Assembly: GCA_021234155.1 (NCBI GenBank)
Contig: JAJEKV010000016.1
Span: forward strand, 3,991,896-4,055,895
From: Isoetes taiwanensis
Lineage: Eukaryota > Streptophyta > Lycopodiopsida > Isoetales > Isoetaceae
Direction of reading: 5' to 3'
DNA: 64,000 nucleotides
Shown here: positions 5,797 through 63,387 of the stretch, in pieces
Layout of the letters: each line of letters starts with the position of its first letter
Numbering within the stretch: the first letter of the stretch is position 1
Position numbers and translations under genes: made by a program
Notes under the pieces: generated by a model
Told to the model about the DNA's origin: nothing
Databases searched by the model: none
Seen by the model: the letters and a program-made list of their open reading frames with translations, nothing else

Positions 5797-6292
5797 TCAG
5801 GGTCCATCCGTATGTCCTTTTTGAATATAATATGACCCCAACTTCTTGCATGAAATATCGCTCTTGGACTCATTAACAAACGACTTATTCTGCCTCAGAA
5901 GATCAAAAACCTGTCGAAGATGTTTGTGCTCCTCTGTAGTTCTGCTATATATAAAGATATAGTCAAAGAATACTACAACACTTTTCCCCAATACTGGTGC
6001 TAGAACTCTTCCCATGAGGCGGCAGAATGTTGCCGGAGCATTAGTCAGTGCAAAAGGCATCACACGGAACTCATAATGTCCAAAAGTTGCTCTGAATGTT
6101 GTCTTATCAATGTCCTCATTCTTGATTCGGATCTGATGATATCCGGATTTCAAATCTATTTTGCTAAAGATGCAGGCACCTCGTAACTCATCAAATAAAT
6201 CATCAACTCTGGGTACTAGAAACTTATCCTTGATAGTTAGCTTGTTGAGAGCTCTATAGTCTACGCACATCCTATATCCCTTATCTTTCTTT
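5797..6292 (-). pseudogene. Gypsy reverse transcriptase fragment, catalytic motif mutated
   Basis: Reads leftwards from 6270. It contains MCVDYRALNKLTIKD, IFSKIDLKSGYHQIRI, FGHYEFRVMPFALTNAPATF and then VVFFDYIFIYS. In Gypsy RTs the last block is normally F-x-D-D; here the second aspartate is tyrosine, so the active site is lost. The frame ends at GHTDGP, where GH-V--DG normally continues, so RNase H and integrase are missing. The product would copy RNA to DNA in the Ty3/Gypsy cycle; this copy cannot. Confidence 0.88.
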
Positions 6293-7200
6293 TTAATCAG
6301 AATAACTGGTGCGCCAAAGGGTGAACAGTTCGGCCATATTTAACTGACAGTCTAACATCTCTGTTATCTGTCTTTCAAACTCCAGTTTTTCAAAATGGCT
6401 GACTCGGTAAGGTGCCCTATTTGAAGGCTTTGCATTTTCTTGCAATTGGATTGGATGATCTTCGGGATGATGAGGAGGTAAATCTAGAGCTTCCTCATCC
6501 TTGAAGAGAACATCAAATTGCCTAAAAAAGTTGTATAATTCAGGAGGCACTTGTGGCTGCGGATCTGAATTTCTCAAGTAAATAAAATACGACTCTGCTT
6601 CACACTGTATTAATTTCTTAGTTTTTGAATAGGTCAACAAGGGTTCAACTTGAGATGCAGAATCTGTGTGCAGCTGCAAAGATTGACCTTCGACAGTTAT
6701 ATTCATTGTCTTTTCACGATAATTAGGTCGAGCGTCAAACTGTTCTCGCCATCCAATTTCTAATATCACGTCCATAGATTCTAAAGGGGCCATAATCAAC
6801 ACTCTTTTTTCTGAGTACTGCTCTATTTGGATAGAAGCTATCAAGTATTTGTCGCACTGATTCTTGAGACCCTTCAAACCTTGCACAACTGTGATTTTAG
6901 AAATCACAAATAGGTAATCCTAATTTGTACACCAAGTCCTACGAAATGAAATCATGTGTTGATTCATCGTCAAGCAAAACAGTCACATCTTGGCCTTTTA
7001 CTGAACCTTTCATTTTAAATAACCATGTTTCTGGAGACCCAATATCTACTCCCGATAGATTCTTTAGGTATGCAATCTGCAGTCTCCCTTTTTCTTGCTC
7101 AATAGCTGCAAGCTTTCCTTTATTCCTTTCTTCCCCGTCCCTAGAAGTCTGGTCTGTCCTCCATATGATGGGCTTGAGCAACCTGCCTTTCTTTGGGCGG
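6293..7200 (-). pseudogene. Gypsy protease and PR-RT linker, degraded
   Basis: Two frames (6907-6293 and 7181-6939) carry the aspartic protease and the linker to RT. The protease active site reads VTVLLDDESTHDFIS, where the family has D-S/T-G; both the Ser/Thr and the Gly are replaced. Later blocks SMDVILEIGWREQF (flap region) and LPPHHPEDHPIQL (pre-RT linker) are typical. A frame change separates the two parts. Confidence 0.8.
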
Positions 7201-18049: not shown

Positions 18050-19215
18050 TTTTTCTCTATATGGGTTCGTTTAAGGTTTCAAATTTTGTGATATGGAGAC
18101 TCGAACCTCTACCAAAATAATTCAATATCCTAATAAGAATGCTTTGACCAATGCTACTAGTAAACTAACATGCTTATTTTCTCTACTAAATCTATTTTTT
18201 TTTCTGCAATAATAACCTATTCAAATGCTTTAGAGGTATGGTCTATTGTCTCAGGGATAGTGATTTATGCATCCATATCAAATCCTTCTGGAACCCCCTG
18301 TTATTGTGCTACATATTCTAAACGAGGTGCACCCTGGACTACCTCAATCATCGGATCTGTCCATCGTATGACCAAGATTGTATGTTGGAGTCTCTGGGTG
18401 CCTCCTGTTTCGATTATGTTCATTTATGACTAGGGGTGCCTATGATTTTGAAATATGGAATATAGGTTTGCCTAAGGTTTTGGAATATGAAATACCGAGA
18501 CTCGTCTCTATATGGGTTGGGTTAAGGTTTCAAATTTTGAGAAATGGTGACTCAAACCTCTACCAAAATAATTCAATATCCTAATAAGAATGCTTTAACC
18601 AATGCTACCAGCAAACTAACATGCTTATTTTTTTCTACTGAATCTATGTTTTTTTTTCCCAGTAATAACCTATTCAAATGCTTTAGGGGTATGATCTATT
18701 GTCTCAGGGATAGTGATTTATGCATCCATATCAAATCCTTCTGGAATCCCCTGTTATTGTGCTACATATTCTAAATGGACTACCTCAATCGTCGGATCTG
18801 CCCATCATATGGCCAAGATTGTATGTTGGAGTCTCTGGGTGCCTCCTGTTTCGATTATGGTCATTTATGACTGGGGGTGCCTATGATTTTGAAATATGGA
18901 ATACAGGTTTGCCTAAGGTTTTGGAATATGAAATATCGAGACTCCTCTCTATATGGGTTCGCTTAAGGTTTCAAATTTTAAGAAATGGAGACTCGAACCT
19001 CTACCAAAATAATTCAATATCCGAATAAGAATGCTTTAACCAATGCTACCAGCAAACTAACGTGCGTATTTTTTCTATTTCATCTATGTTTTTCTTTTTC
19101 TTTTTCAATAATAACTATTCAAATCCTTTAGGGGTATGGTCTATTGTCTCAGGGATAGTGATTTATGCATCCATATTAAATCCTTCTGGAACCTCTGTTA
19201 CTGTGCCACATATCC
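18050..19215 (-). repeat. Tandem array (2.6 copies) of a ~445-bp interspersed repeat with tRNA-like A/B boxes
   Basis: The block ctctaccaaaataattc starts at 18107, 18558 and 18999, so the period is 451 then 441 bp. On the minus strand each unit carries a B-box-like ggttcgagtctcc (18107-18095, with relatives at ~18558-18546 and ~18999-18987) and, 43 nt before it, an A-box-like tggtcaaagc (18150-18141). That spacing matches tRNA genes and tRNA-derived SINEs. Related single copies occur at 34985-35290, 49150-49580 and partly at 19815-19900. Short ORFs in the array repeat from copy to copy and are shadows. Confidence 0.75.
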
Positions 19216-20152
19216 AGAATTATCTATAATTGCAAAATCAAGGTTGCAAAATAACAAAACATCCATGAAGAATCTTGAATCGAGACAACACGCACTAATA
19301 ATTGTAGGTGAAATCATGAAAGATTGTCATTAAAAGCAACTAATATAGAACAAGAACTACACTACTATAACGTACCCAAATTTCTTTGATTATGTGCAAT
19401 GAGCACAATTTAACACATCATACTTTATTTTTCTTTATATTGAAAGGTGTTAGTCTGTAGTTCATTCATCATCAACTGTAATACTCTTCAACTTTTGCAG
19501 TCTATTGCATCTATGCTATGGTTACAATCCCAAATACTTTTCCACCTACAAACTCCATTACAATACCCATTCCACATGTGCATGACTAATGCCCAGCATC
19601 GTCGGGCACAGGTTTCTAATAATAATAGTTAATAAAAACTTATATACTTATGTGCATAAATCCATATGATGCTCCTATTGTATAAATGCAAGAAATCCTC
19701 GTTCTCAGTGACTGCTATCACCAGAAAAGGCCCTCCATTTGAGTAGGATGATTTATAATAGCCAAGTGTTAGGATACCCTATACCATGAAATCGTAGCTA
19801 GAATATATAGCACAATAAAAGGGGTTCCAGAAGCATTTGATATGGACATAATTCCTGAAACCATAGGCCATATCTCTAGGAAAATTGAATGGAACCATCA
19901 TTCATTTAAATTGGATTTATGTCTGTTCCAAAAGCACGCCACTTTTGCATACCCTTTTTTCAATATAGTGTTGTGTTGTATGACATGTTGTTTTGCATTG
20001 TTGCAAATTTTTGCATTATAATAGTGGGTGGTTTAACATTTTCTTGTTTTAATGAGAAGAATGTGATGTTTGATTAGCATTTGTAGATATAACAACACAT
20101 CAATATACACAGAACACTTTTTACATTGTATTCACTTGATATGAAGATTACA
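19216..20152. other. Intergenic, with a partial inverted copy of the 18-kb repeat
   Basis: At about 19815-19900 ggggttccagaag-atttgatatgga and the following 60 bp match the reverse complement of the 18-kb unit. Nothing else is recognisable. Confidence 0.5.
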
Positions 20153-26671: not shown

Positions 26672-27001
26672 GTACTTTAAAGCAGTACTGTAATTTCTTC
26701 AGAAGCTGTACTGTAATTCTCAATTTTGAGAGAGATGAAGTGAAATCACGCCAGGCGCGAAATATGTTTGTGTGCAAAATGTTTAAATTGTACAGGTCCA
26801 ATACACGCCTGGCGTGAATTGCATGCAGTTCTTCACGCTATGCAATTCACGCCAGGCGTGTATTGGACCTGTACAATTTAAATATTTTGCACACAAACAT
26901 ATTTCACGCCTGGCGTGATTTCACTTCAGCTCTCTCAAAATTGAGAATGAAAGAGCCAGAATTCAAAACAGCTTCTGAAGAAATTACAGTTCTGCTTTCA
27001 A
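26672..27001. repeat. Foldback element: ~330-bp inverted repeat with arms of ~150 bp
   Basis: The left arm (about 26672-26826) and right arm (about 26838-27001) are near-complete reverse complements around a loop near 26832. The matching extends from the outer aagcag-actgtaatttcttc through caattttgagagag and tttgtgtgcaaaat to the inner ccaatacacgcctggcgtg. The right arm has about 15 extra bases. Each arm carries two copies of the cgcctggcgtg core. No terminal TIR of a known superfamily and no clear target duplication were seen. Transcribed, it would form a long hairpin. Confidence 0.88.
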
Positions 27002-28110: not shown

Positions 28111-30402
28111 ACTTACAACCTATTTTTTGCTGCACTTACAACATATATCACCACCATTTAATGGTTTTTTTGGTATTTTTTAAAGTTCCCTTTAATCTAC
28201 TCTCAAAATTACTTTGTCCTTTTTTCGAACTAATATTAAAACATTTAACTTTATATAGGTGAAGCATGTGGATCCTAAAAAGGGTAAAAATGTAATACCT
28301 ATCCCCCTCCAACATGTTTCAACATTGTTACCACATGTTCTTATCACATTGTTACCCCATTGTAAACATTGTTCTTGTAGGTCAATGGTGTGGACCACCC
28401 AAAGGGTGTTGAGGCTGAGAATACTAAGCAAATTATCCTCTACAGTAGGTTGGATTGGAAGAATAAGAAGGTGAAAGTGAAGCACCAATGCAATAAGAAG
28501 CTAGTAGGTGAAGGAACTATCATACTAGCTGATCCCATCCAAGCTGTCAATGATGAAAGGTTAGGAGAGGATAAAGTGGGTGTGGCCATAATAAGTTTAG
28601 AAGAAAAATGGAAGGAAAAAGGGTCAAATGACCAGGATTGCACTGTTTGTATTAAACAATTGGAGGTTCCATGCATCATGCCATGACCTATAGCCTGCAT
28701 TGAGGTTGTGGATGACACTGATTTTCTTAATGCACCTTCAATAGCTGCCAGGACCACATTTTCAGAGAAGAGGGCACACTCAGTGGTGAAACATTATCCT
28801 AGCAAGAGGTCCAAGTCAAGTAGTGATTGTTCATGTGAAGCTCTGACTAAGGTAAGGGGAATGGAATGTTGTTGGGCTAATTGTGTTCAGAAGTTTGAAA
28901 TTGATGAATTGGTGGAAGCAAGAGCCACCTTCCAAGAGTATATTTGTGATGAGAGGAGGACTTACATGTACTCCATTCATGAGCTTGCACTTCAAGATGA
29001 AAAATTTCCAAAGAAAAAAAAATACCCACTGCTAGGGACATGGATACATAAAGTTGTATGGATACATATTCATGGCATTCCAATTTCATCTTGGCAAAAT
29101 TGGCAAGCAAGTCATGCAAAGGGGAGTAAAATTGCATTACATGGAAATAATGGCATATTGAGGCCAACTTCTAGGATCCTGGCTGCTAGGGAGGTTTTTG
29201 AAAAATATGTTGAATTCAATGCTGAGAATATGCCACATAAAAGTAGGAAAGATCAACAGGGAAAAATAGTTGTCGAGAAGATATTGTCATCCCATTGTAC
29301 CCAGAAGAGCATATTGGAGGAAGTGAATGCTTTGCTTCGAGAACTACAGGTATCTGCAATATCTCAACCCAGCTTCAGTAGACTATGGAGCAAGCACTTC
29401 AAGCATGTCACTATAGACACTTCGAACAACTTTGCAAAGTGCAACTTGTGTGCTAAGTTGAAAGAGGTTCTGGATAAGACCAGGCAACCAAGCCAAAGGG
29501 CTAAGATAAGGGAGCAAATGAAAGATCATATGACAGAACTATCATGTAGATCCACTTATTGGATGTGGAGAACATTATCATGTTTGGAACCCACTAACTA
29601 TGTTTGTATTATACATGACAAGATGGATCAATCGAAGACTTGTTTGCCACAGTATAGTTACATACCCAAGCAAATCAATAGCGCTTATCCTTTGCAAGTC
29701 TCTCTGACAGGTGCAATAGTGCATGGCTCGGTGCCAATTTATTATGGTCATTTTAGTTTGCAATTGTGGAGTGATGGTCTTGATTTTCATATTGGAAGTG
29801 TGATGAGGTGCTTGAGGAACTATGAGAGTGGTTATTCTGGTGACCTCCACAACCCTGGAGGTGGTAGCCAACCACTCTTCAGTGCATTGTTGGATAGAAA
29901 GCCTAATAATTTAGAGAAGTTTACTAAGACAAGGTTTAGGAAGTCAGGTGCTTCTGAACATGTTGGAGCCTCAAGTTCACGTCCCCAACCTCGAGATCTA
30001 TCACCAAGGTTCCTCCTCCAACTTGACAATTGTGCTGGACAGAATAAAAACAGGTATATGTTCTCGTTCCTATCTTATTTAACAGCTCTGGGTGTCTTTG
30101 AAAGAGTGAATTTAGGGTTCTTACTGCCTGGACATACTCATGAGGATGTGGATGCATTGTTTGGGAAGTATAGTGCGCAGTTGAAATCTCAAACAGTGAC
30201 CAAGCTTCCTAGACTAATGGAAGTTCTTAGTGAATGCATTCTTCTCCTATAGGGTTGATCATACAAGAGGTGCCTGATTGGAAGAATTTTATCGAAGGTT
30301 ATGCTCTTGATATGGAAGGTCAATCTAGACCTCTTCAGTACACTTTCTGGGTCATGGGAAATAAGCCAATAATGCAATAGAAGATGAGACCTTCAGGGTA
30401 AA

Positions 30403-30709
30403 AGCATGCTACGATGTACCACTTTTGGAACCCTCAAAAGTACCTACACTGGGTACTTTTAAAACTGGTACTTTCTGTTTTTTCTTTCCATTAAAATCAA
30501 TCGAATTTTTTTGAATTGAAGGTCAATAACATGCCAATCTATAGTACTAAAGGATAACAATACTATTAGAGACGAAAATAAATCAATCAACTCTCAAACT
30601 TATTTTTTATTGCGGCATTTATGCAGTTCCCAGTACCTAGTACTGGGTACTTTTTTGGGTAGTTACGCACTCCCTAAAAAGTACTTTAGATGGTACACCC
30701 TAGCATGCT
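30403..30709. mobile_element. 291-bp MITE with 8-bp target-site duplication
   Basis: The element (30411-30701) is flanked by agcatgct at 30403-30410 and 30702-30709. Its ends are imperfect inverted repeats (acgatgtaccac and, reversed, agggtgtaccat; 9 of 12), and it holds repeated aaagtacc/ggtacttt motifs. An 8 bp duplication suggests a hAT-type non-autonomous element. Deleting the element and one agcatgct restores the host reading frame (AGG GTA AAA GCA TGC TTT), which confirms the borders. Confidence 0.85.
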
Positions 30710-31375
30710 TTCACCCTTCAGATGATAAATGGAGGCCAGATGAGGGAGTACCTATATGGCACGAAGATGAAAATGGTAAACCTAAGATTCCACGGGGTCA
30801 ACCAAAAGCTCTTAAGCCTTTTGCAGAGGTGGATTCATTGCAAAGCACATTAGACGGCATTTCTGAATACATCAAGTATTGGAAAAATAACCCCGATGAT
30901 ACCAACCTTGCATTGATAGATTATTGGACACAGGTACATGGATTATTGGGACAAGTAGACACATCCTCTGATGAACTGAAAGATGGATGGCTACCTAAGA
31001 CTAGGTGGAGAGACTTGATAACACCTGAGGAAGTTGATGATATGGTTAGTAGTATTCGCAAGTCGATGGCTCCTCCAATTTTTGAAACCACTATCTTTGG
31101 TCCTAGGAAAGGAAGGCCTAAATATCTCGGGCTGGAGGACTATGATTCCAGAGATGACTTGGTTTGCCATCAATTTGCACTTATAGTACCAGAGCGCAAA
31201 GAGATATACCATGTGTGGATGGGTTACACCATCTCAGAGGTTTGCAAAGAAGTAGGTGACCGCAATGTGAACAAAGTTCGTGTGGAGTGGTGGTGTCCAA
31301 AGCACCCGGTTAAATCTTTGTGGCGGGCAGGAAGAAAGGTATAGAGACTGTTGGACAAAGAGATGGAAGAGAAAC

Positions 31376-32196
31376 TGATATGGAGCATGCTAGGGGGAGT
31401 GGTCCAAAAACAAGGGATTAAGACAATGGGGCGTAGGAACACCAATGTTTACAAGAAATGTTAAATAAAAAGGGCAAGATATTAGGCATATTCAACTATT
31501 GAAGCCAAGTATAGAAAAGCAAAAGGTGAGCAACGAATAAGGCATGCAACTATATTGAAATAAGGCATGCAACTATTTTTAAAAAAAGTGAGACGAACTG
31601 GCGGACCCGATGGGCGTGAACAGGCTTTTAATCAAAAGAAGAAGGGAATCGATGGATTATTGGAGAAGGTCGGCCAGGCCACGAGCGGTAGGAAAGGCGG
31701 AAGACCACTGTTAAGAATCGGCATCACGCAAATCGGCTTTGGGTACGGGCCGCTTCCAAATCCGGCTCCAAAGATCCAGCCGCTGCCTGCTGGTCCCGAT
31801 CCAATTCAACTTGCTAGAAGCTGACAGCCGTTTAGAATCTTGCAAGCGGAGCTTTATCTGTGGCCCTCTTTGTGAAGCCAGAGATTGAGTCCATCTCCTG
31901 CGATTGGCAATTGTGATTAAATCCATTTAAACCCATTGCTGTTGTTAGAAGGATAGATCTAGTGCTGAAGGAAAGTTGGCCTTGATCAATTCCGTCACCC
32001 TGAAGCCCTTGGAAGTTGTCTTAATCCCTGGATCCGGTTGGGTGGTAACTGGATGCTCCATTCCTGGTTGTGGAAACCTTGTACAATCGCTCTTGAGAAG
32101 AACTCTTATAGAACTCAAGTGTTATCTCATCTGTTTCTGTCTATTCAATTGTTGATCTAAGTGAACAATATCTCTAAGAATCCTTAAATCATATCA
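31376..32196 (+). repeat. 5' LTR of the gag-only element
   Basis: 821 bp, tg...ca ends, ending aaatcatatca just before the PBS. It matches 33856-34670. Confidence 0.93.
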
Positions 32197-32198
32197 AG

Positions 32199-32212
32199 TG
32201 GTATCAGAGCCA
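32199..32212 (+). promoter_or_regulatory. Primer-binding site (initiator tRNA-Met)
   Basis: tggtatcagagcca, two bases after the 5' LTR. This is the standard sequence complementary to the 3' end of plant initiator tRNA-Met, and primes minus-strand DNA synthesis. Confidence 0.95.
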
Positions 32213-32233
32213 GCCGATCCTCCTACCTGATCA

Positions 32234-33431
32234 ATGGCCCAACGCTTCAATGTTACTGAAGCACAATACCAGCAAGCCTTGTCTAACGCTAGCTACATTG
32301 CATCCCGAGCAGCACCTATGCCTAGCAAATAGGCAAGAGTATGACAGGCAAGTGGAATTGCTGTCTATCTTGTACCGCTTCCTACCAGATATTTATCTGC
32401 AGCCCTCGCAACCTCCTTTGCCTAATGGTCCTTCACCAGTAACTCTGCCACCGCCACCTAAGCTGAGAAAATGGTTAGAGAAAGTAGACATGCCGTCTTT
32501 CAAAGGGGGAAAGACAAAGCCAGTCAAGGTTGTCAGTTTTATCAGTCAGTGGGAAATGTTCTTTGAACGTGTGCAGGCAACAGATGTGGAAAGACTGCAA
32601 GCCATGGATACCTATCTAAAAGATCAAGCCCAAGCATGGTGGCAAGGCAGACGAGAATGTGATCCCAAGATCACTGATTGGGAAAGTTTTAAAACGGCAT
32701 TTGACGCACATTATTTGCCCTCTAATTATCACAGTGAGCTGCGTAGGGAATGGGATCGTCTGAAGCAGGGGGAAACAGAGAGTATTCAGTCCTACACTTC
32801 CAAATTTACTCACTTAGCGGCACTAATAAGGAATTTGGATGGGAAAGAGCTTCTGAGAAAATATGTCAGCGGATGTAGGGATGATATCTATGCGGAGATG
32901 GAGATATTTCACCCTAAAGATTTAAATGAAGCCATAAAATTAGCATCTGCAGTGGAACGGAAAATAGATCCCAAAACTAGGAAATTTGATTTCTGGGATG
33001 AAGACGCTTCAGATGATCAGGAGGATAAAAAGAGTAGCAAAGACAAGAATGGAAGTAAGGAATCTTCCAAAAGCTTCAAGAAGAGGAAAAACAACGGCAA
33101 CGGCAACGGTTCTGAAAAGAAGCGGGAAGAGGGAAATCAAGGTAGACCGAGAAAGGAAACTAGGGAACCAAAAGGAGGTTGTTATAGATGCGGAGGAAAG
33201 CATTACTTAAGGGATTGTCCGTTTGGAGAAGGGGGGATCACAAAGGTTGAGACACCTAAACCTCAAAGGGGTGTACATATGCATGCTATTGAAGGTTCCA
33301 AGCTGGAGGATATACCTGAGACCTCTAAAGCTGCTGACGAGCGGAAGAAAGGTGTAAGCTTCCAAGATGAGGAACGAGCAAAGGCTAATGCCAAAGAACG
33401 GAAATGGCTCCAAATGGGAACTATGGGGTAA
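32234..33431 (+). CDS. Gag polyprotein of the gag-only element, one frameshift near the start
   Basis: An ATG at 32234 opens MAQRFNVTEAQYQQAL and reaches a TAG after 32 codons. The main frame, open from before 32250, carries the rest from about RQEYDRQVELLSILY, so a 1-nt slip near 32330 separates them. The main frame holds the capsid-type domain (MPSFKGGKTKPVKVVSFI, WWQGRRECDPKITDWESF, YTSKFTHLAALI, YVSGCRDDIYAEM), a basic linker rich in Lys/Arg/Asn/Gly (about residues 265-310) and one zinc knuckle, CYRCGGKHYLRDC (C-x2-C-x3-H-x4-C, common in plant Gypsy gag). It ends at a stop at 33429-33431. Gag packages element RNA in cytoplasmic particles. The slip could be an assembly error. Confidence 0.85.
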
Positions 33432-33601
33432 ACATAGTTAAGATTTATACCTTTAGGGTAAGACTTGCAAAATTTGATTTGTATGTTGAGTTTTTTTGTG
33501 TGGAATGAAAATCAAATTATTATGTACGCATGGTGCATTTGATGTAAATTTTGAAGAATGGTAATTGTAGTTGTAGCAATAGGCCTGCCAAAATTACATC
33601 A

Positions 33602-33705
33602 GTATCGTGGAGATACAATGATTGGTATCGTGGAGATACTGTATTGGGAAAATACAATCACGTGGTACCGCGGAGGTACAAGGATATATCGTACTGCGGA
33701 AGTAC
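33602..33705 (+). other. Array of five 15-nt hairpins with covarying stems and GNRNA loops
   Basis: Positions 33602-33616, 33625-33639, 33641-33655, 33665-33679 and 33691-33705. Each is a perfect 5 bp stem around a 5-nt loop: gtatc/gatac (twice), gtatt/aatac, gtacc/ggtac, gtact/agtac. Loops are gtgga, gtgga, gggaa, gcgga, gcgga, all fitting G-N-R-N-A. Two base pairs change on both sides together, so pairing is kept while sequence varies. The last hairpin gains an outer stem (ggatat at 33682-33687 with atatcc at 33710-33715). They lie between the gag stop and the polypurine tract, in the 3' untranslated part of the element RNA. Confidence 0.85.
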
Positions 33706-33840
33706 GCGGATATCCATAACTGTTTCTTAAGTTTGCAGGATTAGGGAATCCTTCGATGCAACTTGATTCGGGAGCAATCACCTTGAGAAGGGATGGACCC
33801 ATCTCAAGTGCATTCGAAAGATCGCGGACGATCTTCTTTA

Positions 33841-33855
33841 AGAAGGGATGGAATT
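33841..33855 (+). promoter_or_regulatory. Polypurine tract of the gag-only element
   Basis: aagaagggatggaat directly before the 3' LTR start at 33856. This is the plus-strand primer position. Confidence 0.75.
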
Positions 33856-34670
33856 GATATGGAGCATGCTAGGGGGAGTGGTCCAAAAACAAGGGATTAA
33901 GACAATGGGGCGTAGGAACACCAATGTTTACAAGAAATGTTAAATAAAAAGGGCAAGATATTAGGCATATTCAACTATTGAAGCCAAGTATAGAAAAGCA
34001 AAAGGTGAGCAACGAATAAGGCATGCAACTATATTGAAATAAGGCATGCAACTATTTTTAAAAAAAGTGAGACGAACTGGCGGACCCGATGGGCGTGAAC
34101 AGGCTTTTAATCAAAAGAAGAAGGGAATCGATGGATTATTGGAGAAGGTCGGCCAGCACAGAACAGTAGGAAGGCGGAAGACCCTGTTAAGAATCTGGCA
34201 TCTGCAAATCAGCTTGGGTACGGCTGCTTCCAAATCCGGCTCCAAAGATCCAGCCGCTGCCTGCTGGTCCCGATCCAATTCAACTTGCTAGAAGCTGACA
34301 GCCGTTTAGAATCTTGCAAGCGGAGCTTTATCTGTGGCCCTCTTTGTGAAGCCAGAGATTGAGTCCATCTCCTGCGATTGGCAATTGTGATTAAATCCAT
34401 TTAAACCCATTGCTGTTGTTAGAAGGATAGATCTAGTGCTGAAGGAAAGTTGGCCTTGATCAATTCCGTCACCCTGAAGCCCTTGGAAGTTGTCTTAATC
34501 CCTGGATCCGGTTGGGTGGTAACTGGATGCTCCATTCCTGGTTGTGGAAACCTTGTACAATCGCTCTTGAGAAGAACTCTTATAGAACTCAAGTGTTATC
34601 TCATCTGTTTCTGTCTATTCAATTGTTGATCTAAGTGAACAATATCTCTAAGAATCCTTAAATCATATCA
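33856..34670 (+). repeat. 3' LTR of the gag-only element
   Basis: 815 bp, tgatatg...catatca, followed by the target duplication gaaac. It matches the 5' LTR. Confidence 0.93.
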
Positions 34671-34825
34671 GAAACCCTATTGAAGGGGATGATTGGGTTG
34701 AGTTAGATACTATTTTGTTTTCATGGACCCCAAAGGTCATCCCAGGCAAGACTGCTAGGGTTACAACACCTGTGGAAGTGAGGAAGAAAGCTATGATATC
34801 TCTAGGGGTCACTTCTGAGAAGTAA

Positions 34826-51756: not shown

Positions 51757-53352
51757 TGTGACGTCCCCTACTCATATACGGTGCACTCACCGTATACAAA
51801 CAGGAGTTCATCCCCCATACCAGCTCCATGCTAATATAGGGCCCTCCATTATCACCGCAACCTTGAAGAGTTCCATTGGGAAGAATGAAGGGGTCCTTTA
51901 CCCCTGTCTCCCTCGGGGCCTACCTAGCCTGCGGAAGCGTAAACATACATGTCGATGGTACATACATCAACATCATATGACCATCACGAAGGATGGTCCT
52001 CCACATATCTGCATAGACAAAGATCAGCACATCACATAGGGAATCCTACCCAAGGCTCGGACTCAAAGGGATGGCCCGGCGGCTTGGGTCTCCGAGTTCA
52101 TTCATTGGATGCAATTCATGGCAATGGATTTGGCTGGCATAAGAACATGGCATAGGGTTGTCCACTCCATCCGCCCCTCACATTGCACACTTTGCGAGTA
52201 GGCTGAAAAGTGTCGGGACTCGATTTGTAGCCAGCCGGGATGCATAGCCGGAAGGGCTATTCCCGGGGGTCATCATCCCAGGTTCGATGGGGCGGTAGGG
52301 ATCACTCCCTCCAGAGATCTACATGCCGACTCAAGGTGACTAGAGGGCCACTTTGCCTGTATTATTTGAAACCCACCGGAAAGTCATGAACACCACTTCA
52401 CGGTGTCGAGCCCATGCCTTACCCACACTTTCGGTGGTAAGCCATTAGACCTAGTCACAATGATCCCGGTGAGCCTTACACACCGGAGGGATCGTTCAAG
52501 AGTCGAGAACACCTAACCTCCTTCTTAGCCCGGTCTGCCCCTTCACCCACAACCAGGTGTGGTTCTTGTACACAGGCGAATCTATGGTGTGCTAGAGAGG
52601 CTAATCTAGGAGCATCTACTACCAAGCTTGAAGTCTCTACCCCCCTTCCCAATACAAGGAGTTCACAGAGATACATCATCCATATACATCACGGAAGAAC
52701 TAAAGAACATAGATCTAATCTATATCATAGAGTTAGGTTCTTTAGTTAGAGTCTCAGTATCTACTCATCTAGAGATCTAGATAGCTGCTAAAGGCGATTT
52801 AATAGGCTAAACCTCTTGATACAATGACCGGAAAACGGTTTAGACCATTAAATCGACTACATACCGGGTCCATGAGTTGCTCCTCCCGACTGAGTTCGAC
52901 CATCCCACTTTGGAATCGCGAATCAAGGGAAACTAATGGTGCCATTCTCTCGGGCAGTCCGGGAGGCGGTTTTGACTCATAGAGCAGCCAAAACGAGCTC
53001 TAAAACCCTAGGAACGAAAATGGGCAAGTTAGGGTTCTTCTACTTAAATAGGCAAGGGTTGGGACTTAGGGTTTCCAATTATCCCTTTAGGCATGTGGGA
53101 TAATTGGAAATGGGCCCACTTGCCTTTAATGGCTAGGTGGCCAAATGTGCCTACATGGAAATGTGTGCACCTTAATAAATGTGCATGTGCACATTAATAA
53201 GAAGTGCACATACCTAGCAAGTTGCCCCCTAGGGCTACTCACTGGCTACACGCCGGCGCAGACAATGCCGTCGGTTGGGTGGTACGCTGCGGATTTGTGA
53301 CAAAGACAATGATACGCCCCGGGACCGTGATATCGTGTCTTTGAACGTCACA
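51757..53352 (-). repeat. 3' LTR of the LARD-like element (left copy)
   Basis: 1596 bp, tgtgacg...cgtcaca. Contains a 9 bp-stem hairpin (51775-51796) and a 14 bp-stem hairpin (53072-53110) also present in the other LTR. Confidence 0.9.
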
Positions 53353-61797: not shown

Positions 61798-63387
61798 CGT
61801 GGCGTCCCCTACTCATATACGGTGCACTCACCGTATACAAACAGAGTTCATCCCCATACCAGCTCCATGCTAATATAGGGCCCTCCACGTATCACTTTGC
61901 AACCTTGAAGAGTTCCATTGGGAAGAATGAAGGGGTCCTTTACCCCTGTCTCCCTCGGGGCCTACCTAGTCAGCGGAAGCGTAAACATACATGTCGATAG
62001 TACATACATCAACATCATATGACCATCACGAAGGATGGTCCTCCACATATCTGCATAGACAAAGATCAAGACATCACATAGGGAATCCTACCCAAGGCTC
62101 GGACTCAAAGGGATGACCGCGGCTTGGGTCTCCGAGTTCATTGCGCAGAATTCATGGCAATGGATTTGGGCAGCATAAGAACATGGCATAGGGTTGTCCA
62201 CTCCATCCGCCCCTCCTCCAGTTGCACACTTTGCGCAGTAGGTGAAAAGTGTCGGGACTTCGATCAGAGGCCAGCGGGATGCATAGCCGAAGGGGCTATT
62301 CCCGGGGTCATCATCCCATTCCGATGGGGCGGTAGGGATCACTCCCTCCGAGATCTACATGCTGACTCAAGGTGACTAGAGGGCCACTTTGCCGTGTTCG
62401 ACCAACCCACCGGAAAGTCATGAACACCACTTCACGGTGTCCAGCCCATGCCTTACCCACACTCGGTGGTAAGCCATTAGACCTAGTCACAATGATCCCC
62501 AGGAGGCCTTACACACCGGAGGGATCGCTCAAGAGTCGAACACCTAACCTCCTTCTTAGCCCGGTCCGCCCCTTCACCCACAAACCGGTGTGGTTCTTGT
62601 ACACAGGCGAATCTATGGTGTGCTAGAGAGGCTAATCTAGGAGCATCTACTACCAAGCTTGAAGTCTCTACCCCCCTTCCCAATACAAGGAGTTCACAGA
62701 GATACATCATCCATATACATCACAGAAGAACTAAAGAACATAGATCTAATCTATATCATAGAGTTAGGTTCTTTAGTTAGAGTCCTGTATCTACTCATCT
62801 AGAGATCTAGATAGTGCTAAAGGCGATTTAATAGGCTAAACCCTACCGATACAATGACCGGAAAACGGTTTAGACCATTAAATCGACTACATACCCCAGT
62901 CCATGAGTTGCTCCTCCCGACTGAGTTCGACCATCCCTCACTTTGACGCCGAATCAAGGGAAACTAATGGTGCCATTCTCTCGTATCAGTCAAGTCCGGG
63001 AGGCGGTTTTGACTCATAGAGCAGCCAAAACAGAGCTCTAAAACCCTAGGAACGAAAATGGGCAAGTTAGGGTTCTTCTACTTAAATAGGCAAGGGTTGG
63101 GACTTAGGGTTTCCAATTATCCCTTTAGGCATGTGGGATAATTGGAAATGGGCCCACTTGCCTTTAATGGCTAGGTGGCCAAATGTGCCTACATGGAAAT
63201 GTGTGCACCTTAATAAATGTGCATGTGCACATTAATAAGAAGTGCACATACCTAGCAAGTTGCCCCCTAGGGCTACTCACCTGGCTACACGTCGGCGTAC
63301 ACGTCAGTTGGAGTGGCGTGTACGCTGGCGTGATTTTAGAACGATGCAAGATACGCCCCGGGACCGATATCGTGGCCGAACGTCACA
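61798..63387 (-). repeat. 5' LTR of the LARD-like element (right copy)
   Basis: 1590 bp; its left border is cg instead of tg, otherwise co-linear with the left LTR. The same two hairpins lie at 61816-61837 and 63110-63148. Confidence 0.9.

Follow-up and report, generated by a model that had tools for sequence, protein, structure and literature searches.

A string of GGA-loop hairpins between gag and the 3' LTR of a plant gag-only retroelement: a candidate RNA docking array

The element and its surroundings

The DNA analyzed here is a 64,000-nucleotide stretch of an Isoetes taiwanensis contig (the window), and positions 31371-34675 of it are occupied by an LTR retroelement, target-site duplications included (Table 1). 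An ORF with a DUF7869 domain (28708-30252) adjoins the element region, and a MITE-like insert, whose inverted ends are 27 nt long (89%), is found at 30395-30717, between this ORF and a second one at 30610-31344. The window also holds an LRR kinase gene and ORFs with ubiquitin and HECT domains, in keeping with plant DNA. Repetitive DNA further from the element includes a foldback at 26711-26953, whose two 114-nt arms are 96% complementary and 15 nt apart, and tandem units of ~441-453 bp at 18054-19220, to which inverted stretches at 35.0-35.3 kb and 49.4-49.6 kb are related. On the minus strand, 5797-6904 carries parts of a retroelement pol, namely a reverse transcriptase domain (PF00078) and a weak protease match, and two direct-repeat blocks at 51857-53242 and 61899-63280, which are ~10.03 kb apart and 89-99% alike, are probably the LTRs of a long retroelement.

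The two LTRs of the element are identical in 809 of 823 aligned columns, the 14 differences being 5 mismatches and 9 gap columns. All 14 are confined to a 74-bp patch at ~31678-31751, and several of them are run-length changes. Errors in sequencing or assembly, or conversion of this patch, are a likelier cause than age; outside it the LTRs do not differ, suggesting that the element is probably young. The primer-binding site, TGGTATCAGAGCC, we take to be of the initiator Met tRNA type.

The sole gene found in the element is gag. Read from the ATG at 32234, the frame soon meets a stop codon, and a different frame holds the long gag ORF, indicating that the gag frame may be broken near its N-terminus, or that the sequence may be faulty there. 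The zinc-knuckle-like motif of the predicted protein is one residue shorter than the canonical CX2CX4HX4C spacing, and scores 13.7 bits against Pfam zf-CCHC, under the cut-off of 20.8. A search of the PDB with Gag (E up to 1) returned five weak matches, four of them Arc capsid proteins and one a VNAR chain. Relatives of Gag were also sought in collections that are not expected to hold plant DNA, and none was confirmed among 5 viral-contig stretches, among 28 genome-contig stretches or in a phage collection. From the gag stop to the 3' LTR there are only 423 nt (33432-33854), an interval that leaves no room for pol, and pol is taken to be absent. Three translated stretches of the interval (43, 53 and 60 aa, covering some frames) gave no Pfam match at E up to 5. 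A short LDSGA peptide near 33760 recalls a protease motif and was considered as a pol remnant; without Pfam support, it was treated as chance. Judged by its sequence, the element belongs with the TR-GAG elements, an already known gag-only kind of LTR element, and is probably young.

Table 1. Features of the retroelement and of its gag-LTR interval (window coordinates)
Feature	Position	Strand	Description	Basis
Target-site duplication	31371..31375 (left), 34671..34675 (right)	+	GAAAC, 5 bp	Sequence read directly
5' LTR	31376..32196	+	821 bp; TGATATGG...ATATCA	LTR alignment
Primer-binding site	32199..32211	+	TGGTATCAGAGCC	Sequence
gag ORF	32250..33431	+	393 aa	PF03732 Retrotrans_gag, E 1.1e-16; PF19259 Ty3_capsid, E 3e-13
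Zinc-knuckle-like motif	33180..33218	+	CYRCGGKHYLRDC (CX2CX3HX4C), after Lys-rich linker	Sequence
Hairpin 1	33602..33616	+	GTATC-GTGGA-GATAC	Pattern match, folding
Possible 5-bp helix round hairpins 2 and 3 (three-way junction)	33619..33660	+	TGATT/AATCA; not in the minimum-energy fold	Sequence
Hairpin 2	33625..33639	+	GTATC-GTGGA-GATAC	Pattern match, folding
Hairpin 3	33640..33656 (core 33641-33655)	+	TGTATT-GGGAA-AATACA	Pattern match, folding
Hairpin 4	33665..33679	+	GTACC-GCGGA-GGTAC	Pattern match, folding
Hairpin 5	33690..33706 (core 33691-33705)	+	CGTACT-GCGGA-AGTACG	Pattern match, folding
Hairpin 6	33737..33752	+	AGGATT-AGGG-AATCCT; GGA only when closing base included	Count, folding
Hairpin 7	33764..33780	+	TGATT-CGGGAGC-AATCA; not favored in folded ensemble	Count
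Hairpin 8 (imperfect)	33783..33807	+	TTGAGA-a-GGG-ATGGA-CCC-a-TCTCAA; outside the eight counted	Spotted by eye
Hairpin 9	33818..33835	+	AAGATCG-CGGA-CGATCTT	Count, folding
Putative PPT, purine-rich tract before 3' LTR	33840..33854	+		Sequence only
3' LTR	33855..34670	+	816 bp	LTR alignment

Hairpins of the gag-LTR interval

An earlier note on this DNA had described five hairpins of identical geometry in the interval. When the whole window was searched with the 15-nt hairpin pattern GTAYYGNRNARRTAC, exactly five matches were obtained against a mean of 0.05 expected, and none of 100 shuffles reached five. Their placement between gag (PF03732, PF19259) and the 3' LTR was confirmed as well. Perfect hairpins with a 5-bp stem and a 5-nt loop likewise number five in 33590-33730, whereas 5000 shuffles averaged 0.16 and never exceeded 4. 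The stems of this family (GTAYY) are GTATC/GATAC twice and GTATT/AATAC, GTACC/GGTAC and GTACT/AGTAC once each, and the loops are GTGGA twice, GGGAA once and GCGGA twice; hairpin 5 is in addition nested inside a GGATAT/ATATCC helix (33682-33715). Spacings of 23, 16, 24 and 26 nt place the units in different reading frames, and a coding repeat was rejected on account of these out-of-frame spacings and of the three Pfam-negative translated stretches. The spacers between units are unrelated and unequal in length, so that the hairpin alone recurs, and TRF (score 30 or more) detects no tandem array over 33602-33715.

Compensatory change in the stems had also been claimed. Stem pairs 4 and 5 do change in step, showing all four combinations of T-A or C-G with C-G or T-A and no broken stem, but the statistical support for this is thin. 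Re-pairing the arms of the four distinct units gave four perfect stems in 1 of 24 permutations (2 of 120 with five units), and the covariation score was matched or exceeded in 13 of 500 column shuffles. We regard the covariation as modest, since it comes down to some three double substitutions between units that are related and belong to a single element, four of these units being distinct.

The array is larger than first described. Between the gag stop and the 3' LTR, counting perfect stems of at least 5 bp with loops of 4-8 nt and removing overlaps, there are eight perfect hairpins, the GTAYY five and three with unrelated stems, and the letters of the interval allow a ninth, imperfect one. 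Two further candidates, a GNRNA hairpin at 32320 in gag (GCCTA-GCAAA-TAGGC, within 32234-32340) and a wobble-paired hairpin at 33495, were set aside as chance. In a check for kissing interactions, only one of eight loop strings, GATGGAC, was found to be complemented within the element, once per LTR.

What the hairpins have in common is GGA. It occurs in the loop or closing base of all eight perfect hairpins of the interval versus 24 of 346 elsewhere in the window (Fisher 1.9e-9, or 3.3e-5 with the five-member family counted once), and strictly within the loop in seven of the eight versus 15 of 346. This excess was seen in 18 of 18 settings of the stem, loop and wobble rules (P 0.0021 to 9.5e-9), and looser rules lower the GGA share, for example to 6 of 13 when wobble pairs are allowed at stem 5 and loop 4-8. 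Across 2000 dinucleotide shuffles of the interval, hairpins averaged 1.8 (maximum 6) and GGA loops 0.26 (maximum 3). Given that GGA was chosen after inspection, the test was repeated for the most-shared trinucleotide of any kind, which reached eight in none of 5000 dinucleotide shuffles. Per 300 nt, the six top counts of GGA-loop hairpins in the window (8 down to 3) all come from this cluster, and the maximum for TCC-loop hairpins anywhere in the window is 2. Shuffles of 33432-33854 that preserve trinucleotides yielded at most 7 hairpins and at most 4 GGA loops (mean 0.47); because none of these 3000 shuffles reached eight hairpins or eight GGA loops, the array as a whole stands.

The three hairpins with unrelated stems (33716-33854) were also assessed on their own. 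With closing bases included, the count of the most-shared trinucleotide reaches three in 4 of 5000 dinucleotide shuffles, and under the strict loop rule the observed two is reached in 119 of 5000. The corresponding figures for trinucleotide-preserving shuffles are 2 of 3000 for three GGA loops and 32 of 3000 for the strict count of two. However, the region 33590-33854 is itself rich in GGA, with 15 occurrences against 4.1 expected from the window, at least 6 of them outside the nine loops. When loops of these sizes are placed at random in this region, all eight hold GGA with a chance of 3e-5, the eight not being independent of each other, and the three unrelated downstream loops all hold it with a chance of 0.019. 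With the GGA-richness of the region allowed for, convergence of unrelated stems on a GGA loop is only suggestive.

Folding predictions agree in part with the hairpin string. The interval plus six LTR bases is predicted to be more stable than shuffles (z -2.9, 0/100), and so are 33590-33730 (z -3.1, 2/200) and 33716-33854 (z -2.3, 4/200). When 159 stretches of 120 nt from across the element were scored, those at 33716 (z -3.2), at 33336 within gag (-2.9) and at 33596 (-2.8) came out on top, and because the stretch inside gag scores this well the array is not unique in stability. Across three folded stretches, the formation probability is 0.73-0.93 for hairpins 4 and 5, 0.04-0.73 for hairpin 3 and 0.01-0.40 for hairpins 1 and 2. 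The low values of hairpins 1 and 2 arise because the two can pair with each other, and they do cross-pair in the minimum-energy fold of 33590-33730. A structure with all five hairpins and the enclosing helices comes to -33.7 versus a minimum of -37.8, placing it 4.1 kcal/mol above the minimum. The GGA guanines of hairpin 7 (33771-33772) are predicted to be mostly paired, with unpaired probabilities of 0.01 and 0.02. Over 33432-33854, mean unpaired probability is 0.62 for GGA bases, compared to 0.37 for all bases and 0.43 for all G.

Possible roles of the hairpin string

Little seems to be known about the way in which plant LTR elements select the RNA that they package, or about the mobility of gag-only elements; the main text of a 2025 review of plant LTR elements contains no occurrence of hairpin, stem-loop or psi (PMC12786077). 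The near-identical GGA-loop hairpins, strung together, make a compact candidate signal in this respect, and their loop motif points to zinc-knuckle readers. Because the loop motif is shared on the sense strand, the loops would be read in RNA. We propose, with a probability of about 0.38, that the gag-LTR interval serves as a repeated docking array in the sense RNA for a GGA-binding protein, perhaps Gag, for packaging. The basic linker of Gag and its zinc-knuckle motif would contact the guanines exposed in the loops, and a series of several weak sites would permit high-avidity selection of the element RNA into Gag particles. The short element could be packaged with its own Gag or with the Gag of an autonomous partner that supplies Pol. 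The GTAYY five would have multiplied as units of ~15 nt between unrelated spacers, presumably by common descent. It is also conceivable, if doubtful, that the packaging signal is modular, the array growing both by multiplication of single hairpins and by unrelated stems converging on one loop, with Gag reading many weak zinc-knuckle contacts. If true, such a modular signal would reveal the means by which an element that is not autonomous vies for capsids.

Zinc knuckles are known to take up exposed guanines. As summarized in the accessible part of PMC7599994, both knuckles of HIV-1 NC do so in GGAG and GGUG tetraloops, the MoMuLV NC knuckle binds exposed guanines, and one RSV NC knuckle binds in the SL-C tetraloop. 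The zinc knuckles of Lin28 recognize GGAG, often in loops, according to the accessible text of PMC3759924. In addition, MoMuLV NC is described as binding tightly to a set of three stem-loops and not to single ones (PMC7599994, same portion), a finding that counts against docking on isolated hairpins but also fits the avidity model. The distance of ~20 nt from the primer-binding site to the first following ATG (32234) was counted in favor of packaging through Gag docking. Counted against it were the single element copy, the position of the array 3' of gag, the fact that hairpins 1-3 and 7 are not always the preferred fold, the comparable stability of the stretch inside gag, the GGA-richness of the region, the shortened knuckle with its score under the Pfam cut-off, and the report that HIV-1 packaging was not significantly altered when the GGAG loop was replaced (PMC7599994, same portion).

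The earlier note had read the loops differently, as GNRNA pentaloops of the boxB class, which arginine-rich peptides bind; on this reading such a peptide would lie in Gag. The packaging or trans-mobilisation that the note suggested is conjectural. The 5+5 geometry and the fit to GNRNA do hold for five of the nine hairpins, but these are related units whose loops are not independent evidence, and the loops of the other four (AGGG, CGGGAGC, ATGGA and CGGA) violate the rule and yet carry GGA, AGGG doing so with its closing base. The Gag linker, which had been described as Lys/Arg-rich, is indeed basic but mainly Lys-rich, and lambda N protein is absent among the PDB matches to Gag (E up to 1). 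We therefore hold this reading to be very improbable; the GNRNA likeness is most readily explained as incidental to the loops of a single family, the common feature being GGA and not boxB geometry. Less easily dismissed, although still unlikely, is that the array has no function, its units having been multiplied by template switching in reverse transcription, with arm-to-arm correction keeping the stems perfect and GGA resulting from descent and the GGA-rich region. Tandem repeats are common in the 3' UTR of Tat-lineage elements, as reported in the accessible part of PMC7004042, and in an element this young constraint cannot show in one copy. Covariation alone is weak (13/500; 1/24), and the GGA of the three unrelated loops is, at 0.019, a hint at most. 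Against functionless expansion are the unrelated spacers, the lack of a TRF array over the units, and a count of eight perfect hairpins that lies beyond all 3000 trinucleotide-preserving shuffles (maximum 7).

Next in rank, and likewise unlikely, comes post-transcriptional control read by the host, in which the unspliced RNA would depend on the array for its export from the nucleus, its stability or its sorting. CTE and RTE elements sit between the last ORF and the 3' LTR, as this array does, and a host factor could use repeated small loops just as Gag could. Cis elements of this kind have been described for mouse IAP and musD (PMC12786077) and for type D retroviruses (PMC1363727), going by the accessible parts of both sources, but the former names no plant element of such kind there. 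Furthermore, no Rfam match was obtained at E up to 5 across 31300-34800, by which a known RNA family was rejected. Binding at the DNA level, with the palindromic units recognized by a dimeric DNA-binding protein, is improbable. The units are palindromes with a spacer, and in one viral contig (L001) tandem GCGGAAGTA repeats resembling DNA iterons include two GTACTGCGGAAGTAC units; but half-sites would be expected to be constant, yet two stem positions change in step, and a strand-specific GGA between otherwise differing arms would not be expected. That contig came from searches with a two-hairpin pattern in collections where plant DNA is not expected. With a GTAC start there was one viral-contig match, at 1925-1964 of L001 on the minus strand, in which 20 nt are by eye identical to hairpin 5 of the window; with a GTATC start viral contigs gave none, and genome contigs had no match to the pattern. 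L001 was rejected as a relative, since the similarity was judged to be chance or analogy and its tandem GCGGAAGTA repeats are probably DNA-binding iterons. Among all of these, docking of Gag for packaging is the most likely function, followed by functionless expansion and then by a host-read export or stability element.

Comparison with known systems

The hairpin string resembles the CTE of type D retroviruses, the RTE of IAP and the MTE of musD in being a structured cis RNA of an LTR element that lies between the last ORF and the 3' LTR. CTE and RTE are export elements that bind NXF1 or RBM15. The string differs from them in that the element here has no Rfam match, and to our knowledge CTE, RTE and MTE are not strings of GGA hairpins. 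The boxB hairpins of lambdoid phages combine a 5-bp stem with a 5-nt GNRNA loop, as do five units here, whereas the remaining units depart from that pattern, nothing resembling an N protein is seen as a partner and the genetic setting differs. Bacterial trans-acting RNAs of the CsrB/RsmZ type are strings of GGA-loop hairpins that bind CsrA/RsmA many times, and their likeness to the array is a design analogy only. Closer to the proposed role are the NC-binding hairpins of HIV-1, MoMuLV and RSV, which share with the element, as judged here by sequence, exposed guanines in small loops and, in Gag, a motif that resembles a zinc knuckle. The retroviral hairpins are located in the 5' leader, whereas the array lies 3' of gag and has eight or nine units, which are candidate sites only.

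Among plant elements, TR-GAG elements have been found in many species and one has been seen transposing in Arabidopsis, according to the accessible text of PMC8704663. The element described here, which has a target-site duplication (GAAAC), is similar in having two LTRs, a gag ORF and no room for pol. However, a hairpin array is not named for TR-GAG in that part of PMC8704663, and the transposing example resembles ATCOPIA63 members, whereas the gag here is of Ty3 type by Pfam. The 3' UTR repeats of Tat/Ogre elements also follow the coding part and precede the 3' LTR, but in the accessible part of PMC7004042 they are tandem head-to-tail monomers, whereas here the hairpins alone recur and the spacers are unrelated. 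In the open-access literature, covered mostly through titles and the beginnings of abstracts, we came across no account of GGA hairpins strung together in an element of this or any other plant.
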